Source: Salegentibacter salinarum (GTDB taxonomy: Bacteria > Bacteroidota > Bacteroidia > Flavobacteriales > Flavobacteriaceae). From it: DNA of 64,000 nt. The notes beneath the pieces were generated by a model. The model made no database searches. It was not told the origin of the DNA and was given only the letters and a program-made list of their open reading frames with translations. Location of the stretch: NCBI RefSeq assembly GCF_900168115.1, contig NZ_FUZC01000004.1, positions 1-64,000 on the forward strand, read 5' to 3'. How positions within the stretch are numbered: position 1 is the first letter of the stretch; the number at the start of each line of letters is the position of its first letter. Of the stretch, positions 10,305-21,390 are shown piece after piece. Both the position numbers and the translations under genes were made by a program.

Positions 10305-11285
10305 TTATTCTTGGGCCTCAAAATACTGATAACCGTCTATAATATCCAGGTAAACTCCGTCAAACCCGGCATTAATTATTTTACTAAGATAGGCATTATT
10401 GTTTTCGTAGATTAAATCTTTCCAATCCTGGTTCCAGTATTCTACTTTAAAATTTCCTTTCCAATCGGGGTTTTCTTCAACAAGCCAGTTTGGATATTCG
10501 GAACTCCATCTTTCTTCCCAATAGAAGCGATAATCTTCGGCTTCGCCAATAGACATATAAGCTATAACTAAACGTTCCCCACCATTTTTCTTCTTCTTTA
10601 ATTTTTTGATATCTTGAGCAGTAAAAGGTTGGTTACGAAAGAAAAGATCCATAACAATCAGGTCGTAGTTAGTGAAAGCTAGTTCAGCCAGAAGATCCTG
10701 TCTTGAAGAATATTCAGCGTAATTTAAAAGGTAGAGGAAGTTTTTAGCTTCAGCAAGCTCGGTTATATCTTTATTATTTTCATTAAAAACAGGATAAGCA
10801 GGAATTTGATCCAGTTTACGACTGGGTGCCGCGAAAGAAATATAATTGTTTTCCTCATTAAGCCGGTAAGATTTTTTCATAAGCTTAAAGTTGGAAGAAT
10901 AATCGGTTACCAATACTTGCTTGCCCTTGTCTTTTGCCAGATCAAGGTACTTTCTTAAATAGGTATTATCGGCTTTTGGGGTGATTTTATTTAACTTAGG
11001 ATAACCATAAAAAAGGTCTTCCTGGGCTACCGCGTTTATGGCATTTAAATATTCTAAAGCAGGAATTTGCTGTGAACTGCAATCTCTGGCGAGCAGCTGA
11101 ACCCCGTTTTGCGGAATTACTATGAAATTAGGGTCTTCAGCTTTCGCGGTTTCACTTATTTCAATAACAAACTCCCGCATTTCTTGGCGGTAATCAATAT
11201 TTTTATTTGATTCCTGAGCCTCGTATTCGCCGCAGGAAAACAATAAGCAGCAAAGCATATAAGTGCTTATTCTAAAGAAGTTCAT
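10305..11285 (-). CDS. Lipoprotein, MJ1477/TM1410-type putative glycosidase
   Basis: The product has 326 residues, with a lipobox ending at C18 (LLFSC). An N-terminal region of about 200 residues resembles a partial barrel, and the C-terminal half holds YMSIGEAEDYRFYW and a final GFDGVYLDIIDGYQYF (D309, D314, D317). These motifs belong to the COG2342/TM1410 family of TIM-barrel proteins related to endo-alpha-1,4-polygalactosaminidases (GH114 and the PelA hydrolase domain). It lies head to head with the pel-like operon starting at 11461, and a second barrel of the same superfamily is inside that operon. A role in trimming or turning over the exported polymer is likely but inferred. Confidence 0.75.
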   Translation of the reverse strand: MNFFRISTYMLCCLLFSCGEYEAQESNKNIDYRQEMREFVIEISETAKAEDPNFIVIPQNGVQLLARDCSSQQIPALEYLNAINAVAQEDLFYGYPKLNKITPKADNTYLRKYLDLAKDKGKQVLVTDYSSNFKLMKKSYRLNEENNYISFAAPSRKLDQIPAYPVFNENNKDITELAEAKNFLYLLNYAEYSSRQDLLAELAFTNYDLIVMDLFFRNQPFTAQDIKKLKKKKNGGERLVIAYMSIGEAEDYRFYWEERWSSEYPNWLVEENPDWKGNFKVEYWNQDWKDLIYENNNAYLSKIINAGFDGVYLDIIDGYQYFEAQE

Positions 11286-11436
11286 ATTTATGGGGCAATT
11301 TTAAGCAAAGATAAGTTAAATTACATTCTATAAATTACGCTTTATGGCAGGATTGTTATTCTATTTAAACAATTATAATTTTGGATTTGTTCAAAATTTT
11401 ATGACATCGAATTTTTTAAGTAATTGATTTTTAACA

Positions 11437-11444
11437 TATTTTTG
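11437..11444 (+). promoter_or_regulatory. Candidate -7 element of the pel-like operon (TATTTTTG)
   Basis: TATTTTTG matches TAnnTTTG and ends 16 bases before the ATG at 11461. The nearest TTG (11423-11425) is too close for a standard -33 box, so activation by another factor or a weaker promoter is possible. Confidence 0.4.
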
Positions 11445-11460
11445 GCCCAAAACATTTTAA

Positions 11461-12984
11461 ATGGCGAAACCATCTGTATTGCTTATTATGGAAGGCACCT
11501 ATCCTTTTAATGGAGGCGGCGTTTCTACCTGGGCACATATTTTATGTAACAGGGTTAGCAATGTAGATTTTAAACTATATTCTATAAATGCTTCCTTTGA
11601 GAAGGAGTATAAGTACACTTTAAGCGATAATATTAGCGAAGTGATACAGGTGCCGCTTTGGACTCCAGATGAACCTTATGACTATATAAGTTACGGCGAG
11701 GAATATTATAAAACTGTGGCTAAAAAAGAGTGGACTAATGATGATATAGTTGCTCAAAAGTTTATTCCTATTTTTAAAAGCTTGCTGGAATTTATTTATA
11801 GCGATGACCGTGATATTGAAGACCTGGATATAATTTTTCACCAGCTCTGGTTTTATTTTGAAGACTACGATTATAAAGAAACCATTAGGAATGAACGGGT
11901 TTGGCTAACTTACAGAGATACCCTTGCCAAATTTATTATTGGTGAGCGCAACCCTGACGCATCTTTAATAGATATCACCATAGGCCTACGCTGGATTTAC
12001 AGGTTTTTAATACCTCTTGCGATTGTCAATATTCCGAAAGTAGATGTATCTCATCTAACTCTGAGTGGTTTCCCGGTAATCCCGGCGCTTATTGCCAATT
12101 ACAAATACGGTACCCCGATAATCCTAACCGAACACGGAGTTTTTATCAGGGAAAGGTTATTGGCTATTAATAATTCAGAATATCCATATTTTTTAAAGAG
12201 TTTACTTATTAGGTTTTCTGAAGCTATTACCCGTTTGGTTTATCATAAGGCAGAGGTTATTATTTCTGTAAATAAATTCAATCAAAAATGGGAAAAATGG
12301 TATGGTGCAGATCCGGATAAATTCAGAATAATTTATAACGGGATTGACCCAGAAGTTTTTAAACCAGGCCCAAAACCTGCGCATTTAAAAGATATTCCTA
12401 CTGTAGTAGCATTGGCAAGAATTTTTGAGTTAAAAGATATCCTCACTATGATTAGATCTTGTGCGGTAGTTAAGAAAACTATACCGGAAGTGCAATATCT
12501 TGTATACGGGGATAATAATGCGGTACCTGAATATACCAAAGAATGTCTTGAGCTTATAGCCGAATTAGGGTTGAAAAACAATTTTAAACTCATGGGGCCA
12601 AGGAATAATCCTCAGGAAGTTTTTCTGGAAGGTGATATTTCTATTCTGACTTCTATTTCTGAAGGATTTCCTTATACCGTAATTGAGTCCATGGGTTGTG
12701 GAATTCCCGTGGTTTCTACCGATGTGGGCGGAGTTAAAGAAGCGCTTGACGATAGCTGCGGTTTTACCTGTAAACCAAAAGATGCTGAAGAAATTGGCAA
12801 CAATGTTTTAAAATTGCTTCTGAATGAAGATTTGCGGAAGAGTATGGGTAGAAATGCAAGGGAAAGAGTCTTAAATAATTTCACCTTATCCAAATTTATT
12901 GGCGAATATGAAGCAATTTATGATGATATTGTACAAATACCCAAGGCCGAAAAAAAGCTTACCAAGATTGAAGATTTTTCCTGA
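11461..12984 (+). CDS. PelF-like GT4 glycosyltransferase
   Basis: The 507-residue product has the same length as Pseudomonas PelF. It opens with a DUF3492-type N-terminus (LLIMEGTYPFNGGGVSTW, G18-W24) and ends with a GT-B nucleotide-sugar domain: an NGIDPEVF motif, and an EX7E motif, E401-GFPYTVI-E409, followed by GCGIPVVSTDVGG. PelF is the cytoplasmic enzyme that polymerises the Pel polysaccharide, a GalNAc-rich polymer, from UDP-sugars. The donor here is not provable from sequence. It is the first gene of a five-gene operon, and the transporter gene follows after two bases. The start is fixed by the -7 element just upstream. Confidence 0.85.
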   Translation: MAKPSVLLIMEGTYPFNGGGVSTWAHILCNRVSNVDFKLYSINASFEKEYKYTLSDNISEVIQVPLWTPDEPYDYISYGEEYYKTVAKKEWTNDDIVAQKFIPIFKSLLEFIYSDDRDIEDLDIIFHQLWFYFEDYDYKETIRNERVWLTYRDTLAKFIIGERNPDASLIDITIGLRWIYRFLIPLAIVNIPKVDVSHLTLSGFPVIPALIANYKYGTPIILTEHGVFIRERLLAINNSEYPYFLKSLLIRFSEAITRLVYHKAEVIISVNKFNQKWEKWYGADPDKFRIIYNGIDPEVFKPGPKPAHLKDIPTVVALARIFELKDILTMIRSCAVVKKTIPEVQYLVYGDNNAVPEYTKECLELIAELGLKNNFKLMGPRNNPQEVFLEGDISILTSISEGFPYTVIESMGCGIPVVSTDVGGVKEALDDSCGFTCKPKDAEEIGNNVLKLLLNEDLRKSMGRNARERVLNNFTLSKFIGEYEAIYDDIVQIPKAEKKLTKIEDFS

Positions 12985-12986
12985 TA

Positions 12987-14600
12987 ATGACTAAAGATCA
13001 AATTAAAGCTATTGCAAAACTTGTGGTTGCGGTTAAAGAACGTAACGGTAAGCCCGTGAATGTTTATGTAGTAGCCGCTACCATTGAATCTTTTGGAATT
13101 AGGGAAATAGATGCAAAAGAAGATTATGGGTTTGAAAGTATAATACATCTTTCAAATTATATTTATAAGGCTTACGATGCCATAACCCTGGCAAACCTTA
13201 AAAATAATAACCAGCGTGTTGCTGAAGCAAAAACTTATAAAAGGCTCGCTTTAACCGAATATATTACCACAAAAAATACCAAGCGCTTTATTGTAGATTA
13301 TACTTCGGGGCTTTTACATTTATTTCCGGTTTTTCTACAGGTGGTAGCTATAATTTTATTTGGATTTTCATTGTGGACATACTCTCACTTTAATAACCTG
13401 CAATCTACCGCAGTAGTGCTGGGTGTAATTATTGGTTTTATTAGCAGCGCGGGATTTGTACAGGTGCTGGGAAAGCAGGTCTCCTATTATTGGTATAACA
13501 AAGATTACCATATGGCGAGGCATTCTACCATTCAAATTATAAAAAACGGAACTATTGCCATCTTAGGTTTCTTTATATTCTCTATACTTATAAATTTTGT
13601 TATTCCGCTTTATAGTTTTCTTTTTGTGGTTATAACATTTATCTACGCCTTGTTTATAGGTTTTTTGTTACTGGTTTTAGCGCCTTTATATGCGTTAAAA
13701 CAAAGGTGGATGCTTTCATTTAGCGTTTTTGCCGGTACGGTTTTAGCACTTTTACTTCATTTTTATACAGATTTACATCCTTATTTTATCCATTGGACGG
13801 GGATTCTCGTTGCTTCATTAATATCAGTTGGTTATATCTATGCTTTCTTTCATTTTAAACTGAAAAATCAGACAACGGTAAAAAAGAAGCCTAAAGTAAT
13901 GCTTTCTTTATATCGAAATTTCAACTACTTTTTATACGGTACTTTTATTTTTCTTTTTGTTTTCCTAGATAGGATGGTGGCCTGGTCTTCTACCTTGAAC
14001 CGGGATATTCCCTATATAATTTATTACGAAAAAGATTATGAAATCGGAATGGATCTCGCTATCCTCATTTTCTTCTTGCTTGGTGGGGTAATGGAATATG
14101 CTATTCATTCTTACATACGACATATGGATTTTCATCAACTTCAAACAAAATATTCAGATTTTCAGGATTTCAATGACAAGATGAAAAGAATGTACTTTAA
14201 GCATCTACGTTTGTTTGCGGTTAGTGCCGCCGGAATTGCAGTGTTATTATATCTTATTGTTACCCAACCCTGGGGGTATTCCAGAGGTTTTGATGAGATT
14301 CTTAGTCCTTTGAGCATAAAAGTTTGTATTCTTGGTAGTATTGGTTACTTATTTCTTAGCCTGGGTATGTTAAATGTACTATATCTTTATACGCTGGGGC
14401 GACATAGAAAACCACTTGTGGCAATTATAAGTGCTTTCCTGGTGAATTTTATTATAGGCGTACTTTTAAGCAGATGGGTTTCTTATGAATACAGTGTTAT
14501 GGGAATGTTAGTGGGGTCTTTGCTATTTGCTATACTTACAACAAGAGAAACATACAGTTTCTTTAAAAAACTGGACTATTACTACTATGCATCTTATTAA
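12987..14600 (+). CDS. PelG-like polysaccharide transporter
   Basis: This 537-residue inner-membrane protein has a soluble N-terminal region of about 105 residues followed by about twelve membrane helices (first near residue 108). PelG belongs to the MOP/polysaccharide exporter superfamily and partners PelF; the family usually has about 450-460 residues. FLDRMVAWSS and the final FFKKLDYYYY region fit the PelG pattern. The N-terminal extension, with charged helices, is the difference from the Pseudomonas protein. It begins two bases after the PelF-like gene, and its last 14 bases overlap the next gene. Assignment rests partly on context. Confidence 0.75.
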   Translation: MTKDQIKAIAKLVVAVKERNGKPVNVYVVAATIESFGIREIDAKEDYGFESIIHLSNYIYKAYDAITLANLKNNNQRVAEAKTYKRLALTEYITTKNTKRFIVDYTSGLLHLFPVFLQVVAIILFGFSLWTYSHFNNLQSTAVVLGVIIGFISSAGFVQVLGKQVSYYWYNKDYHMARHSTIQIIKNGTIAILGFFIFSILINFVIPLYSFLFVVITFIYALFIGFLLLVLAPLYALKQRWMLSFSVFAGTVLALLLHFYTDLHPYFIHWTGILVASLISVGYIYAFFHFKLKNQTTVKKKPKVMLSLYRNFNYFLYGTFIFLFVFLDRMVAWSSTLNRDIPYIIYYEKDYEIGMDLAILIFFLLGGVMEYAIHSYIRHMDFHQLQTKYSDFQDFNDKMKRMYFKHLRLFAVSAAGIAVLLYLIVTQPWGYSRGFDEILSPLSIKVCILGSIGYLFLSLGMLNVLYLYTLGRHRKPLVAIISAFLVNFIIGVLLSRWVSYEYSVMGMLVGSLLFAILTTRETYSFFKKLDYYYYASY

Positions 14601-15399
14601 AATATTTATGGTTACAGCCGCAATCTGTTTAAATACTGCACAGTCAGTCGCACAGGAACTAACTCAGGAAAAGCAGATACTATTTACCTATGGCGATTTT
14701 TACCCCGCAGAAGTTTCGGGATACGAAATTTTAGTAATAGAGAGCGCTCATTTTGATAGTGAAGACATTGCAGTTTTAAAACAAAACAATACGACTGTTC
14801 TGGGTTATATAAGTCTGGGAGAAGTTAATGAAGCTGCTGCTCATTTTCCTGAAATAAAAGATTTCACCTTCGGAAAAAATGAAATTTGGAACAGCCATAT
14901 TTTAGATATTGCAAATGATGAAACCCGGGAAACTCTAATGGGTATTTTTGATTACAATATAAAAAAAGGCCTGGATGGGATGTTTTTAGACAATATAGAC
15001 AACTATACTGAATTTGGACCCACGCCAGGAAAGAAAGAGGCTTTAATAGACTTTCTACAGTTTTTAAATGTAGTTTATCCCAATATTCATTTAATGCAGA
15101 ATGCAGGTGTTTCCATTATAAAAGATACCCACCCATTTATAAAGTCAGTAGCAAAAGAGAGTATTGCTTCAGATTATAATTTTCAGCAGAAAAAATATCA
15201 ATTAAGAGATGAAGCGATCTTTCAGCAACTTTTAAAGGAGCTTAAAGAAGCGTATGATGAATATGAAGTCCCGGTTGTTTTAATTGAATATGCCGAAACA
15301 AGAAAATTAAAAAAAGATATTAAACATAGATTAGCACAAACCCCCTGGCCTTATTTTATTGGGAAAATAGATTTGCAGGGTATTCCCGAAAAAGGTTGA
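14587..15399 (+). CDS. Exported PelA-hydrolase-like TIM-barrel protein
   Basis: The ATG at 14587, which overlaps the transporter gene, is chosen because it starts a signal peptide (MHLIKIFMVTAAICL...SVAQ). A longer in-frame start at 14527 would bury that signal. The mature protein (270 residues with signal) has VLGYISLGEVNE at 71-82 and D130-GMFLD-NID138, typical of the COG3868-like hydrolase domain found at the N-terminus of PelA and in GH114. Those enzymes cleave alpha-1,4-galactosaminoglycans in the periplasm. In Pseudomonas this domain is fused to the deacetylase; here it is a separate gene. Catalytic acids are likely among the listed Asp and Glu residues. Confidence 0.8.
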   Translation: MHLIKIFMVTAAICLNTAQSVAQELTQEKQILFTYGDFYPAEVSGYEILVIESAHFDSEDIAVLKQNNTTVLGYISLGEVNEAAAHFPEIKDFTFGKNEIWNSHILDIANDETRETLMGIFDYNIKKGLDGMFLDNIDNYTEFGPTPGKKEALIDFLQFLNVVYPNIHLMQNAGVSIIKDTHPFIKSVAKESIASDYNFQQKKYQLRDEAIFQQLLKELKEAYDEYEVPVVLIEYAETRKLKKDIKHRLAQTPWPYFIGKIDLQGIPEKG

Positions 15400-15409
15400 A
15401 TTAAATAAT

Positions 15410-17401
15410 ATGTATTTAGAACCCTACCTATTAACCGGCCCGTTGAGGATTATCCTGTTGTTTGTATTAATTTTATTAATACATAGAATAGTTTCTACCC
15501 GAATTTCGGCACAATCTGCCTTAAATTTTCTGGTTCCAACCATAACACTCGTTATGGCTGCGGTATTACTCGGTAGTTTTATTTTAATTCTAATCGGCAT
15601 ATTTGATCTCTTTGTTATTATAAGTATTATAATTGGCCTGGCTATTTTGGCTTTTATGAACCTTAATTTTAATCAGCCGTTAAAAACACAATTGCGTAAA
15701 ATATATACTCGTTCCCTTTTGTACATTACTATAAAACTGGAAAAAGGACAGAAATTCCTGGATAGAGATAATATTATAAAACCAAAACATAAACATCCCG
15801 AACACGGGCTTTCACAATATCATAGAAACTGGCAATTGGCCATAGGATTATTGTTGCCGGTCCTTACCTATATCTCAAGAAGTTCACTTTTTCAAGAAGA
15901 TGTTTATACGCTTTCTTCAAGCTGGTTTAGTAAGCTTAATTTTATAAATGGGATTTCTGCCCATACCTGGTTTTTCCAAACCGGGGAAATGATGGGGGAT
16001 TATTTACTCATTAATTTATATGCAAAATTAACCCATATAACCAATGCGCAAGCTTTGCAATCTTTTGGATTGTTAGAATCTGCATTACTTTCTTTAATAA
16101 TTTACTGGCTCGTGTTCAAAATTTCACGAAAGCAAGCGCCCGGTATATTCGCAGGTTTAAGTTTTGCACTATTTTATGCATTCCTGCCAATCAATATCGA
16201 TTTAATTGCAGAGCATAAATCGGTATTTACCTCTTTAATTATTGCTTTGCCAACTATGTATTTCTGTATTTATCCGCAAAGTTTTAGTTTTAACAGAAAA
16301 GCGAAATTTTATTGGTTACTCACCCTGTTTACCGCAATTCTTTTATTAGATCTTTTTGTAGGTGTTTTACTTGTGTTTCCTTATTTGCTTATACTTTTCA
16401 TTTTTAAATTTCGGAAGAATTTTAGACAGATCACTCAAATTTTCCTGGCCTATTTCTTTTCGGTAGCCTTTATAGGAATAATATACGGAGCAGCTGCCTT
16501 GCTTACTAAAGAAGATTTTGGCGCATTTATTTTGTCTAACTTCTATTCTTTTGATACTTACACCTACAATCCTCACCTGGTCGCGCCATTTAGAGACCTA
16601 ATGAATTATTACCAGATAGCCGCGGTGGTTTTTTTACTTATTATAATTTATAATTATATCAAAAAATCGCAAAAATGGTTGGCCAGCCTTGTATTTCTCA
16701 GTTTTATCAATTTAATGATTGGGATCTATCAATTAGACACCGGTCTTGTTGACCTGGATATTTTGAGCCAGGTACTTTGCATATTTATTCCCATATTCTT
16801 CGGAATAATTGTCAATGTAATGGTTAACCTTTTTTCAGTATTTAATTTCTCTCCTAAAGTAGGCACGCGTTTGGAAGTTGTAATTGGTACCATAATAATT
16901 GCCGTGCTTACCATTTCTACATTTCCACGGGTGGCAACATTAAATTTTAAAGAGAATAAAACAGAAAATATGGTGTTTGAAGCCTATTCAAAGATTCAAT
17001 CGGGGAATTTGCCATACTCCTATGCGGTGGTGAATGCTTTGCCGTATTTCAGCTTTAGCAAGAACAGTCATTATTACTATAACTACGATTATTTTAATAA
17101 CACTTATATAGAGCGCGACAGAAGATTCAACAGGTATAAAGATAATTTACAATACCTGCAAAATAACCAGGATATTATTTTACCTGAAACTATGTTTGTA
17201 TTTGTATACAAGCAGATACAGGAAAGTAATCAGGGTAAAAAAGCCGTAGTAGAGAAGCAAAGAGATTTAACCCTGGAAAGGATTGAATTATTAAAATTGA
17301 AAGGAAGAAATGTTGATGTATATTATGAGGATAGAAATTTAGAAGTGTACCAGATTGAAAACAGGGAACGAGCCAGTAATATTAATCAACTATTATTTTG
17401 A
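15410..17401 (+). CDS. Large polytopic membrane protein in the pel-like operon
   Basis: I do not recognise this 663-residue protein. It has three hydrophobic helices in the first 85 residues, a basic loop, then about ten more helices between 140 and 520, and an extracytoplasmic C-terminal domain of about 140 residues rich in Tyr and Asn (YYYNYDYFNNTYIERDRRF). The loop after the fourth helix, SSLFQEDVY, followed by GDYLLINLYAKL, recalls the acidic first loop of GT-C glycosyltransferases, a weak resemblance. It does not look like PelD or PelE. The stop overlaps the next gene's start (TGATG), so the two are translationally coupled, and it probably belongs to the export machine. Confidence 0.7.
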   Translation: MYLEPYLLTGPLRIILLFVLILLIHRIVSTRISAQSALNFLVPTITLVMAAVLLGSFILILIGIFDLFVIISIIIGLAILAFMNLNFNQPLKTQLRKIYTRSLLYITIKLEKGQKFLDRDNIIKPKHKHPEHGLSQYHRNWQLAIGLLLPVLTYISRSSLFQEDVYTLSSSWFSKLNFINGISAHTWFFQTGEMMGDYLLINLYAKLTHITNAQALQSFGLLESALLSLIIYWLVFKISRKQAPGIFAGLSFALFYAFLPINIDLIAEHKSVFTSLIIALPTMYFCIYPQSFSFNRKAKFYWLLTLFTAILLLDLFVGVLLVFPYLLILFIFKFRKNFRQITQIFLAYFFSVAFIGIIYGAAALLTKEDFGAFILSNFYSFDTYTYNPHLVAPFRDLMNYYQIAAVVFLLIIIYNYIKKSQKWLASLVFLSFINLMIGIYQLDTGLVDLDILSQVLCIFIPIFFGIIVNVMVNLFSVFNFSPKVGTRLEVVIGTIIIAVLTISTFPRVATLNFKENKTENMVFEAYSKIQSGNLPYSYAVVNALPYFSFSKNSHYYYNYDYFNNTYIERDRRFNRYKDNLQYLQNNQDIILPETMFVFVYKQIQESNQGKKAVVEKQRDLTLERIELLKLKGRNVDVYYEDRNLEVYQIENRERASNINQLLF

Positions 17402-20400
17402 TGGAAAAATTATTACCAACTAAAATATTCAGTGCGGTTTTCGTAGTGTTTTCTTTTTTCCTAACAGGATGCGAAAAAGATATTGAAAATGAAGAGGTAG
17501 AAGGGGCAAATCCCAGGGTAGAGTATGATAACTTGAGTGAGAACCCGTGGGTAGTTTATCTGGTAGAACCGGGAAATGAGTTAAGTTTCAAAAACAGTAA
17601 CCATATTAGAAAAGCCCTTAATTATGCTAAAATTCCTTACAATGAAATAAATAGATTTGATTTTAATAAAAAACCGGAAGTAGGCAATTCGGTTAAAGTA
17701 ATTGTGATTTATGATCTTGAGCCTTTAAATAAAAATGCAATGAATTTTTTAATTGAATTTGTTGTAAAAGGCGGTCACATTTTTATTCCTTCGGTAGGGA
17801 CTAATAAAAATTTTGGTTTTTTAGCGGGAGTAAGGGGAGATGCAAACTTTGAAATAGATACGATATCCCAAGGATTTAAATTTCAGTCCAGTTTTCTTCC
17901 GGCCTTAAAAGGGAAACAATATAGAAATGAAAACAAACATTTTGGCCTGCAAGCAGACAATTATAGAGAAAATATAGAAATCCTGGCAACTTCAATTTCT
18001 GAAGAAAATTATCCTTTAATTATAAAAAATAAAATAGGGAATGGATCGGTAATTACTTTTAATACCGATCAATATTCTCAGAAGCAAGAACGCGGACTTT
18101 TCTTTGCGGCGATATTACAGGGTTTAGAAGGGGTTCCTTATCCAGTGGCTAATGCTTCAAGCATAATGTTAGACGATTTTCCCGCGCCGCTTTATAATGT
18201 AAAGATGGAACCTGTCACTTCAGAAATGGATATCAGTCAGGCGCGTTTTTATACTGAAGTTTGGTGGAAAGATATGCTTAAACTGGCCAGGGAAGAAGGA
18301 CTGGAATATTCGGCCTATGTATGTTTTGATTATTCTAACCGTACCTCGCCCCCGTTTAATTTCCCCGAATGGGAACAGTCTGTTTTAACCGGTTCTAATG
18401 GTAATAATGCAGCAGATAAACTTATGGTAGATTTTCAAAATTCTACGCATGAGGTAGCTTTGCACGGTTACAATCACGCTTCGCTGACCGGTGAAGTATG
18501 GCCCAATAAAAATTATATGGGCTTAAGTCTTAAGGCAGTTAAAAAACGTTGGGCAGCGCGTAATTATGGCCAATTACCGGTTTCTTATGTGCCGCCTTCA
18601 AATATTATAGACAGTACCGGTTTTGTGGCTCTGGAAGAAAATATCCCCGAAATTATATACAATGCCAGTATTTACCTGGGAAATTTTGAAGACGGTGGCG
18701 ATAGAGAATTTGATAGTGAACCTTATAACAATCATTTTTTCAATTTTCCACGAATTACCAGCGGCTTTTCTTTAACTTCTACCAGGCAATTCAATCAGCA
18801 ATCTTTATATCTCTATACGGGAGTGTGGACGCATTTTATTCACCCCGATGATATTTACCAGATTCCCGGGGAAGAACCTCGGGAAAGTGCGGGTGATTAT
18901 ACTCTAAGGAATATAAATTCTTATGGGTGGAGAGTTTCAGAAGATGGGTCTCCGGGCTTGTTTCCAAGGTTTCGCCAGTATATTAAAGATGTAAAGAAAA
19001 CCTTCCCTTTAATTCGATTTTTAAAAGTTTCCGAAGCAGCAAAAATCACTCAAAACTGGAGGGAAATTCCTTATAATTTTACTGAAAATGATAGTGAAGT
19101 TGAAGTTGCTGCAAGTATTCAGAATACCGAAAATCAAAACTTCTGGTTCGCCTATATCTCAGAAAAAAATACTACTGAGGCTGAAAGTTTTCTGAAAAGT
19201 AAGCAATTTAAATTTACAAAAACTCCTTTTTTAGACGGTTATCTTTTCAACATTCAAACCCGGGAGAAAAAATTAAGTTTACCCAAATTTGAAAATAATT
19301 ATTCTAAAGATTTTAGCGAAATCACCCATATCTATGAATCTTATCTTTTGATAGAACCTTCAGAAGATCTTGGAGATATTGACAAAGAAATTGATGAGCT
19401 AAAATCTAAAATTGCTGAAAGCAGCATATTTGAACGTGAAGATTGGTTGAAATTATTTCAATATTTAGGTTGGAATAATCGCCAAAATGAAATTTGGCCG
19501 TTGCTGGAAAGAAAATACAGTGAAAATAAATCTTCTGTCTACGTAAATCTTTCTTCAGAATTCACCACCCAGAATGATTATCCACATTTGGAAATCAGGA
19601 AACGCTGGATGCTGAGACAAATAGATTTGCAACCTGAAAACCTAAAACTTAGAAAGGATTTTATTGATTATTTTGGAAGCAATTCAGAGGTGCAGTTAAG
19701 TAAAGGAGAGTTGTTAACCTTAATTGAAAGGACTAAAGTAGATGCGGAGCTTTCCAGTTATTTATCCTTGCTAAATGAGAAACATCCGGAAGCAGCTTTA
19801 AATTTAGTTAAAGGCATAGAACCCTGCTGGGAGAATTTTCGGCTTGCAGCATCTACTATTTCCTGGATTTTTGCCGATGCTAAACAATACAGCCAGGCGC
19901 TTCAATGGTCTACTTGCAGCGATGATATTGCCGAAAGTGCAATAGACTACTGGCGTGTGCAAATGGGAGAATATGAATTTTTAAAAGAAGGGAACTTTCC
20001 GCTTTATATAGAATATCTTATTGCCGATAATAATAAAAAAGCGGCCCAGAAACTTCTGGAAATAGAAGCTTGTCGGGAAGATTTAAAGCATTTGGCTGCA
20101 ACAATCTCCTATACTTATAGCGACCAGGGAAGTTATAGAAAAGCCCTGGAATGGTCTTCCTGCGTGCCAGATTTCCCATTGGCCGAACGTATGCAATGGT
20201 TCTATTCACTGGAAAATTTTAGTGAGGTAGAGCGTTTATATGCTAATTATTCTAAGAAAGATAATCCAAAAGAAAAAGAAGCCATTCAGATTTTTATGAC
20301 CGAATATTACCTGGGTCGTAGCGAAATGCTCAAATCCTGGGAACTCGCTTCAGAATTGCCGGAATCAAACAATAAAGAGCGATTAAGAAGGCAACTAAAT

Positions 20401-21390
20401 AACACTGTGGTTTTTCTTAATACAAAACTAAAAAGACAACTTTTAGAAGAATATCCTTCAATTTTTTACCCTGAAGTTTCTTCTAAAATAAAGCAAAACT
20501 TAAGAATAACCGAAGGGGATTTTGTGCAAATTGGAAGTAATATTATTAGTGATAGGTTAGACCCCACCTCTGTTGGCTTAGAAGCGGTGTTTGGCACTCG
20601 AGATAAGAAATTAAATCAACATCAATTTGGGCTAAGCCGCTATAATGCCTATTCAATTCCGTTTCAGGGGGAACAGGAAAATAATGAAGATATGGAGTTA
20701 CACGGGCTGGTTTACAGGTTTAAAACCAGGGAGAGAATTGAAAAATTCAATTTTGGTTTGGGAAGCCGTCTGGAGTTTAATGAAACAGGGAGGGCATATC
20801 TTCATGTCGAAGCTTCGGCGTCTATTGCAAAAGATAGTTTATACAGTTCTTTTCAGTTTTTTAGAAAACCAGCAATAACCGGTCCCGCCTATATTCTGGA
20901 TATTTATCAAACGCAATTAAATGTCTATGAAGAACTTCAGTTTAAAGAGAAATTCCAGGCAGTTTTTTATATAGAAGGAAACCATTATAACGATGAAGAT
21001 ATAATGGATGTGCAGGCGCTTACCAGTTTATCTATGGATTTTAAGCTGAATAAAATGGCGAAATTTAGACCTTATACCGAATTTTCAGGAATGTTGGGTA
21101 ATTCTAACAGGTCTAATGGCTTTCCGTATTGGACTTTAGATGAACGTTTCTATGGCGGATTGGGGATGGCTTACGAATATGTAAATGAAAATAATTTTTG
21201 GAAGATTAATCTTGACGCCGGGTATTTTCTGGATACTTTTTCAGATGAATTTCAACGGTATCGCGGGAGTGTGGTATGGCCAGTCACGAAGTATCTTCAT
21301 CTAAATACCCAGGCCGAATTCTTTACACTTAAAAACTTTTACTCCAATAATTTCACTTTTGGATTAAAATATTTTTTGAAAGATAATTAA
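17401..21390 (+). CDS. Lipoprotein fusing Pel-type deacetylase, helical repeats and outer-membrane barrel
   Basis: The product has 1329 residues, with lipobox LTGC at C24. Residues 45-245 look like the Rossmann/flavodoxin-like domain of PelA. Residues 246-520 look like a DUF2194/CE4-like polysaccharide deacetylase: D258-D259 in SIMLDDFPAP, H355-GYN-H359, and a later THFIHPDD (477-484). Residues about 640-1010 are helical, TPR-like repeats. About 1030-1329 is strand-rich and ends with the aromatic F-G-L-K-Y-F pattern of an outer-membrane barrel. In Pseudomonas, PelA deacetylase works with PelB, a TPR plus porin. Here both appear in one polypeptide, which would deacetylate and export the polymer. 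The start is ATG 17401 in TGATG; the TTG three bases earlier is unlikely. Confidence 0.8.
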   Translation: MEKLLPTKIFSAVFVVFSFFLTGCEKDIENEEVEGANPRVEYDNLSENPWVVYLVEPGNELSFKNSNHIRKALNYAKIPYNEINRFDFNKKPEVGNSVKVIVIYDLEPLNKNAMNFLIEFVVKGGHIFIPSVGTNKNFGFLAGVRGDANFEIDTISQGFKFQSSFLPALKGKQYRNENKHFGLQADNYRENIEILATSISEENYPLIIKNKIGNGSVITFNTDQYSQKQERGLFFAAILQGLEGVPYPVANASSIMLDDFPAPLYNVKMEPVTSEMDISQARFYTEVWWKDMLKLAREEGLEYSAYVCFDYSNRTSPPFNFPEWEQSVLTGSNGNNAADKLMVDFQNSTHEVALHGYNHASLTGEVWPNKNYMGLSLKAVKKRWAARNYGQLPVSYVPPSNIIDSTGFVALEENIPEIIYNASIYLGNFEDGGDREFDSEPYNNHFFNFPRITSGFSLTSTRQFNQQSLYLYTGVWTHFIHPDDIYQIPGEEPRESAGDYTLRNINSYGWRVSEDGSPGLFPRFRQYIKDVKKTFPLIRFLKVSEAAKITQNWREIPYNFTENDSEVEVAASIQNTENQNFWFAYISEKNTTEAESFLKSKQFKFTKTPFLDGYLFNIQTREKKLSLPKFENNYSKDFSEITHIYESYLLIEPSEDLGDIDKEIDELKSKIAESSIFEREDWLKLFQYLGWNNRQNEIWPLLERKYSENKSSVYVNLSSEFTTQNDYPHLEIRKRWMLRQIDLQPENLKLRKDFIDYFGSNSEVQLSKGELLTLIERTKVDAELSSYLSLLNEKHPEAALNLVKGIEPCWENFRLAASTISWIFADAKQYSQALQWSTCSDDIAESAIDYWRVQMGEYEFLKEGNFPLYIEYLIADNNKKAAQKLLEIEACREDLKHLAATISYTYSDQGSYRKALEWSSCVPDFPLAERMQWFYSLENFSEVERLYANYSKKDNPKEKEAIQIFMTEYYLGRSEMLKSWELASELPESNNKERLRRQLNNTVVFLNTKLKRQLLEEYPSIFYPEVSSKIKQNLRITEGDFVQIGSNIISDRLDPTSVGLEAVFGTRDKKLNQHQFGLSRYNAYSIPFQGEQENNEDMELHGLVYRFKTRERIEKFNFGLGSRLEFNETGRAYLHVEASASIAKDSLYSSFQFFRKPAITGPAYILDIYQTQLNVYEELQFKEKFQAVFYIEGNHYNDEDIMDVQALTSLSMDFKLNKMAKFRPYTEFSGMLGNSNRSNGFPYWTLDERFYGGLGMAYEYVNENNFWKINLDAGYFLDTFSDEFQRYRGSVVWPVTKYLHLNTQAEFFTLKNFYSNNFTFGLKYFLKDN

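Follow-up and report, generated by a model that had tools for sequence, protein, structure and literature searches.

A Pel-like polysaccharide operon of Salegentibacter salinarum and other Bacteroidota, with a deacetylase fused to its outer-membrane exporter and no recognisable PelD

Pel is the textbook example of an exopolysaccharide secretion system controlled by c-di-GMP, and in Pseudomonas its PelC component is essential. The P. aeruginosa pelABCDEFG operon has several parts in common with the locus described here, namely a PelF polymerase, a PelG exporter, a GH166 hydrolase, an N-deacetylase, and an exporter made of TPRs and a 16-strand barrel. The two differ in the partner of the deacetylase, which is fused to the hydrolase in P. 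aeruginosa and to the barrel in Salegentibacter, in the lack of PelD and, within the operon, of PelC or PelE, and in the addition of a predicted GT-C protein, an N-terminal PelG domain and a host genome without any GGDEF protein. The deacetylase is also of the CE26 type, and not of the CE21 type of Pseudomonas PelA (PMC13254593). Concerning the Bacillus cereus pelDEA(DA)FG operon, the shared features are PelF, PelG, a CE26/CBM114 deacetylase without a fused GH166 domain, and a separate hydrolase gene, whereas the Salegentibacter locus has no PelD/PelE, carries an outer-membrane part fused onto the deacetylase and possesses the GT-C protein. BcsC and PgaA share the single-chain TPR and 16-strand barrel fold (Z about 22), but they have no deacetylase, whereas the Salegentibacter chain carries fused CBM and CE26 domains at its N-terminal end. 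According to published surveys, pel loci occur in Proteobacteria, Gram-positives, Thermotogae and other groups, and the main texts searched do not mention Bacteroidota (PMC7112168, PMC7112194). A literature search on pel loci of Bacteroidota, on DUF2194 and on the absence of GGDEF, with subscription papers and most preprints outside its scope, found no description of the arrangement. The original prediction had called this arrangement new, which holds for the searchable texts and not for the sequence collections, where it is widespread.

The window, i.e. the whole analysed stretch of 64,000 nucleotides, starts at position 1 of contig NZ_FUZC01000004.1. Six open reading frames were confirmed in it at about the places first proposed, five on the plus strand (11461-21390) and one divergent lipoprotein gene upstream:

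10305..11285, minus strand: putative circularly permuted GH191-type endo-galactosaminidase lipoprotein, 326 aa (TIGR01370; out-of-order TM1410 matches)
11437..11444, plus strand: TATTTTTG, candidate Bacteroidota -7 promoter box, 17 bases before pelF (upstream alignment)
11461..12984, plus strand: PelF-like GT4 glycosyltransferase (polymerase), 507 aa (NF038011, DUF3492)
12987..14600, plus strand: PelG-like inner-membrane exporter with an extra N-terminal domain of ~80 residues, 537 aa (PF16933)
14587..15399, plus strand: GH166 PelA-hydrolase-like periplasmic enzyme, 270 aa (profile match to 5tcb/9cgy)
15410..17401, plus strand: membrane protein with a predicted GT-C fold, 663 aa, GT-C core at about residues 133-654 (AF2, Foldseek, VIA)
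17401..21390, plus strand: fusion lipoprotein (lipidation predicted) with CBM114-like and CE26 deacetylase domains, TPR superhelix and 16-strand outer-membrane barrel, 1329 aa (DUF2194, 9ZAU, AF2)
17554..19080, plus strand: CBM114-like and CE26 deacetylase region of the fusion, about residues 52-560 (alignment to B. cereus PelADA 9ZAU)
19378..20514, plus strand: TPR-like helical repeats of the fusion, about residues 660-1038 (AF2 helices, pLDDT mostly 82-96)
20521..21375, plus strand: 16-strand beta-barrel of the fusion, about residues 1041-1325 (AF2 strands; structural matches to polysaccharide secretins)

The gaps between the five plus-strand genes are, in order, +2, -14, +10 and -1 bp; since the frames touch or overlap, they leave no space for PelC, PelD or PelE, and the compact, tightly coupled set of five genes that had been proposed is borne out. 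Two starts were corrected: the GH166 gene begins at ATG 14587 and encodes 270 aa, the TTG at 14527 being a mechanical start, and the fusion gene begins at ATG 17401 (1329 aa). As to gene content, profile searches directly assigned five of the six proteins: PelF, PelG, two hydrolases of the GH114 clan, both matched by PF03537, and the DUF2194 protein. The TATTTTTG box is conserved among seven close relatives and fits TAnnTTTG, which we take to be the Bacteroidota -7 promoter consensus; it remains a putative promoter, the upstream alignment being its only support. Taken together, the locus is probably a Bacteroidota variant of Pel synthase-dependent secretion, independent of c-di-GMP in the Salegentibacter lineage, with the identity of the polymer being inferred. 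It meets most defining features of Pel and is named a Pel-like variant, not a canonical pel operon, because PelD was looked for and not found.

The PelF protein reaches 176.3 bits with the NF038011 equivalog (cut-off 100) and 185 bits with DUF3492, so that its best match does not lie with unrelated GT4 groups, which would have refuted the original prediction. It is 96% identical to PelF of S. agarivorans, and the NF038011 cut-off was also passed by the PelF of all seven relatives tested. Its EX7E residues E401 and E409, as well as K325, are kept in 88/88 homologues, and R320 in 86/88. The PelF proteins tested score 161-184 bits with NF038011, vs. 688 for one canonical PelF. The predicted PelG-like transporter was likewise recovered, with PF16933 at 31.7 bits, just above the cut-off of 29 that most relatives' PelG miss; the match spans residues 108-534, and pelG adjoins pelF. 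Canonical PelG lacks the N-terminal extension of ~80 residues (window 12987-13310), which is conserved phylum-wide in 82 homologues and for which a Pfam search found no known family. A separate locus (L034, 13563-14516) carries an extra protein of 317 aa resembling the C-terminal half of PelG, located beside its GH191 gene.

The profiles bear out both hydrolase calls. The barrel enzyme of the operon matches the hydrolase domain of Pseudomonas PelA (5tcb/9cgy) with a profile E-value of about 1e-23, far above the other GH114-clan structures, and its catalytic Asp and Glu are invariant among 81 homologues. The divergent lipoprotein, first described only as a second hydrolase-like protein, passes TIGR01370 (183.5 bits, cut-off 181.25). 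Its residues 240-323 align to positions 60-139 of the TM1410 chain and its residues 34-155 to positions 151-269, i.e. the half that follows the strand of the catalytic Asp in TM1410 stands first in the lipoprotein, and the canonical beta1-beta8 order of GH191 is not met. When the sequence was rotated in silico, a single contiguous match to TM1410 was obtained (120 vs. 104 bits), and the score against an environmental GH191 rose from 53 to 60 bits. The catalytic Asp and Glu of GH191, and the activity of one member, have been described (PMC12054363). The lipoprotein has the same pair and motifs as TM1410 and the environmental enzyme: its Asp314 and Glu89, both invariant in 23 homologues, correspond to TM1410 Asp156 and Glu225, with the Glu coming first in the chain. 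A Thermus homologue matched by the lipoprotein profile retains the canonical order. On these alignments, the protein is a circular permutant of GH191 that keeps both catalytic residues.

The fusion protein, anticipated as a deacetylase-repeat-porin chain, reaches 239 bits with DUF2194, a family that covers B. cereus PelADA, and its residues 52-487 match the PelADA structure 9ZAU (E 7e-39). PelADA, which founded CE26 and CBM114, deacetylates alpha-1,4-GalNAc oligomers (PMC13254593). The alignment to 9ZAU shows the catalytic and metal-binding motifs to be kept (DDFP, HGYNH, PPSN, FPR, THF..HPDD), and D258, D259, H355, H359, P399, R451 and H478 are found in 77-78 of 78 homologues. All copies that lie in an operon retain these residues; the single copy that has lost them is a lone one (L035, 2630-6577), a DUF2194-TPR-barrel protein of a genome that lacks PelF (G075). 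It is the only one of the 78 without the metal-binding His pair (HxxxH), and its following His-Pro is also gone. This copy is probably a relic or a repurposed exporter, and a loss confined to a PelF-less genome is what would be expected if the deacetylase acts on the product of PelF. Downstream of the deacetylase, the AF2 model (pLDDT 89.9) forms a TPR superhelix followed by a barrel of 16 strands; the lack of both deacetylase and barrel folds, the other outcome that would have refuted the original prediction, did not occur. Against solved structures, the five best matches are three BcsC entries, PgaA and PelB, with Z between 21.7 and 22.8 (BcsC 22.8, PgaA 22.7, PelB 21.9), vs. 15 or less for other porins; profile comparison detected no sequence homology to PelB. 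The N-terminus is probably lipidated, judging from a lipobox-like motif, the strict pattern of which occurs in 53/78 homologues, with a Cys at about the same place in the 15 non-matching sequences listed. The protein thus joins a Gram-positive-type Pel deacetylase to a Gram-negative-type polysaccharide channel. By "Rosetta stone" logic, this fusion supports the proposed PelA-PelB coupling, contacts between the proteins being inferred.

The membrane protein of 663 aa, previously listed as unknown, is indeed present and no longer wholly so. Profile searches gave it no family, and its sequence profile found no match in the PDB. Its fold was predicted by AlphaFold2 from 47 sequences (pLDDT 81.7, pTM 0.82). 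With this model, the top 18 Foldseek matches are all GT-C enzymes, and the best 45 rows of VIA-align (Z of at least 9.3) are all proteins of the GT-C superfamily, led by STT3 (19.8), DPY19 (18.6) and ArnT (16). According to the model, the protein has a GT-C fold, common to STT3/PglB, DPY19 and ArnT over residues 133-654; it differs from these enzymes by an identity of only ~10%, extra N-terminal helices and a first-loop Asp that is not universal. Arg157, Pro260 and Tyr566 are invariant among its homologues, whereas Asp164 of the first periplasmic loop occurs in 73/79 and is replaced by Asn or His in the other six. As Asp164 is not universal, the activity of the protein stays undecided. A literature search found no GT-C protein in any described Pel system, and the presence of such a protein among the core components points to a modification or assembly step that has gone unrecognised. 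The profile of the protein was also compared with the proteins of a canonical pel operon, as it might have been a diverged PelD/PelE, and matched none, a weak test in that the PelG profile misses canonical PelG as well.

The role of this protein can only be inferred. It could sit in the inner membrane as a transferase that decorates the chain with a lipid-linked sugar, or it could stand in for PelD/PelE as a partner in assembly. That it is a non-enzymatic scaffold replacing both is a serious possibility, to which we nevertheless lend slightly less than even credence: its gene always lies between the hydrolase and exporter genes, PelD was not found and no PelE gene exists in the operon, and distant branches align Asn or His with the loop Asp, but in Flavobacteriaceae/Roseivirga both Asp164 and Arg157 show strong conservation, and the GT-C fold is complete, its C-terminal periplasmic part included.

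In the proposed working of the Pel-like variant, PelF would build the chain in the cytoplasm from a UDP-amino sugar, GalNAc being the likeliest, and PelG would carry it across the inner membrane. In the periplasm, the chain would be deacetylated by the lipid-anchored CE26 domain, after which the same polypeptide may guide it along the TPR superhelix and release it through the 16-strand barrel that it carries itself. Modification and export, which involve separate PelA, PelB and PelC proteins in Pseudomonas, would thus be united in one protein. The free GH166 enzyme may trim or release chains, and the permuted GH191 lipoprotein may remodel the deacetylated polymer in some lineages. What speaks for Pel is that one locus combines CE26, GH166 and GH191, three independent types of enzyme that act on alpha-1,4-GalNAc/GalN polymers. 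The proposal of a Bacteroidota variant of Pel biosynthesis is supported, all the signs that it had asked for (profile hits for PelF and PelG, and a deacetylase with a PelB-type barrel) having been obtained; that the polymer itself is Pel stays an inference.

Several points weigh against the Pel reading. Both PelF and PelG have strongly diverged, which leaves room for a different sugar; the barrel lumen is neutral by a crude estimate, unlike the interior of Pseudomonas PelB, which is anionic (PMC12141448); the GT-C protein is an extra component; there is no PelC at the locus, and experimental data are lacking. The operon might therefore use a merely Pel-like machinery to make another cationic or neutral polymer, built from another amino sugar or consisting of a GalNAc chain branched by the GT-C protein from a polyprenyl-phosphate-linked donor. 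The divergence of PelF and PelG, the retention of Asp164 in 73/79 GT-C proteins and the neutral lumen would agree with this, but the deacetylase and hydrolase domains, shown elsewhere to act on alpha-1,4-GalNAc/GalN, have intact catalytic residues, and we consider another polymer unlikely without ruling it out. Equally tentative is the most far-reaching form of the hypothesis, in which the loci would represent a phylum-wide, c-di-GMP-independent Pel-type branch. Here, a GT-C glycosyltransferase would draw on a lipid-linked donor to modify the growing chain on the periplasmic side, the single lipidated deacetylase-TPR-barrel protein would modify and export it, and the resulting Pel-like polymers, branched or capped, would form a new class.

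Returning to the Pel-like variant and its control, a profile search found no GGDEF domain in the Salegentibacter genome, the control genomes being positive. GGDEF was absent from 14 of the 17 panel genomes (16 with the cluster and one with the lone fusion gene, Salegentibacter included), and the three genomes that have it belong to families f13 and f31. The PelD model (PF16963), positive in a canonical Pseudoalteromonas operon, detected nothing at the Salegentibacter locus, nor in any of 395 Bacteroidota with a working positive control. The reported lack of PelD therefore stands; for PelC and PelE it stands in or beside the operon, a scope that does not extend to the whole genome. The locus offers a natural system for asking why PelC, PelD and PelE are needed. 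The idea of control without the known inner-membrane sensor is strengthened by the joint absence of PelD and of GGDEF proteins from the genome. As neither c-di-GMP synthesis nor PelD is recognisable in these lineages, c-di-GMP control of the operon is unlikely there, and close counterparts of the Pel machine thus exist in lineages without detectable c-di-GMP synthesis. The actual mode of control is inferred; in the Salegentibacter lineage it would probably be transcriptional or at the substrate level, without c-di-GMP.

An unrecognised receptor for c-di-GMP or another dinucleotide might still be at work, given that families f13, f24 and f31 carry an HD-GYP-like gene inside the operon and that two of them have GGDEF proteins. 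We judge this very improbable, for no GGDEF was found in Salegentibacter or in any tested genome of f1, f8 and f24, and the HD-GYP-like gene is missing from the whole genomes of every f1 and f8 member tested. The three families keep PelF, PelG, the GT-C protein and DUF2194, and add a second PelF-like gene together with an HD-domain gene of ~530 aa, which is flanked by pelG and the hydrolase gene in f13 and f24. In f31, the HD protein combines a GAF domain with a full HD-GYP-like motif and is accompanied by SpoIIE, STAS and anti-sigma-like genes. Five loci (L145, L146, L147, L149 and L150) have GSP, GTP or GMP instead of GYP in the HD-GYP-like gene between pelG and the hydrolase, with a second PelF-like gene upstream and, in most of them, a response regulator. 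The f31 cluster L148 (genome G385), where the Pel-like set is joined by genes for an anti-sigma-like ATPase, STAS, GAF-SpoIIE and GAF-HD-GYP proteins, suggests partner-switching control of polysaccharide synthesis.

The genome scan gave 80 PelF loci, 15 of which are cut by a contig end. In all the other 65, the five genes have the same order and strand, without a single deviation, so that the arrangement cannot be due to chance. Among these 65 loci, 10 have the GH191 gene upstream in the same direction and 7 have it in divergent orientation, and in the other 48 no such gene was found. The five-gene operon is common to many marine and freshwater Bacteroidota, including Salegentibacter, Mesonia, Christiangramia, Flavobacterium, Maribacter, Cellulophaga, Aquimarina and Roseivirga, and may be a source of matrix polymer for many aquatic Flavobacteriaceae, in which little is known of the genetics of biofilms. 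At the phylum level, the GT-C gene was found in 27 of 395 genomes. In the PelF phylogeny, where long branches were noted, the Bacteroidota proteins form one clade (100/98), inside which those from loci without the HD gene form another (100/99); older branches carry the HD-GYP-like gene in the operon, while Flavobacteriaceae and Roseivirga are without it. A decayed or horizontally moved fragment devoid of function can be practically dismissed, as the patchy distribution (27/395), the Roseivirga nesting, the lone degenerate copy L035 and the decayed duplicate L149 are outweighed by reading frames that are intact, genes that are tightly coupled and catalytic residues that stay invariant throughout a deep phylogeny.

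Some minor observations were made during the scan. PelF of two Roseivirga loci (L085 and L099) is nested among Flavobacteriaceae sequences, hinting at horizontal transfer of the operon. Beside its intact cluster, genome G506 has a decayed second copy (L149, 15274-19089) with fragments of the PelF, PelG, GH166 and GT-C genes. Finally, plasmids of Deinococcus (L154) and Thermus (L155) possess Pel-like loci with deacetylase domains of the Agd3 type (fungal GAG) and hydrolases of the GH114 clan.
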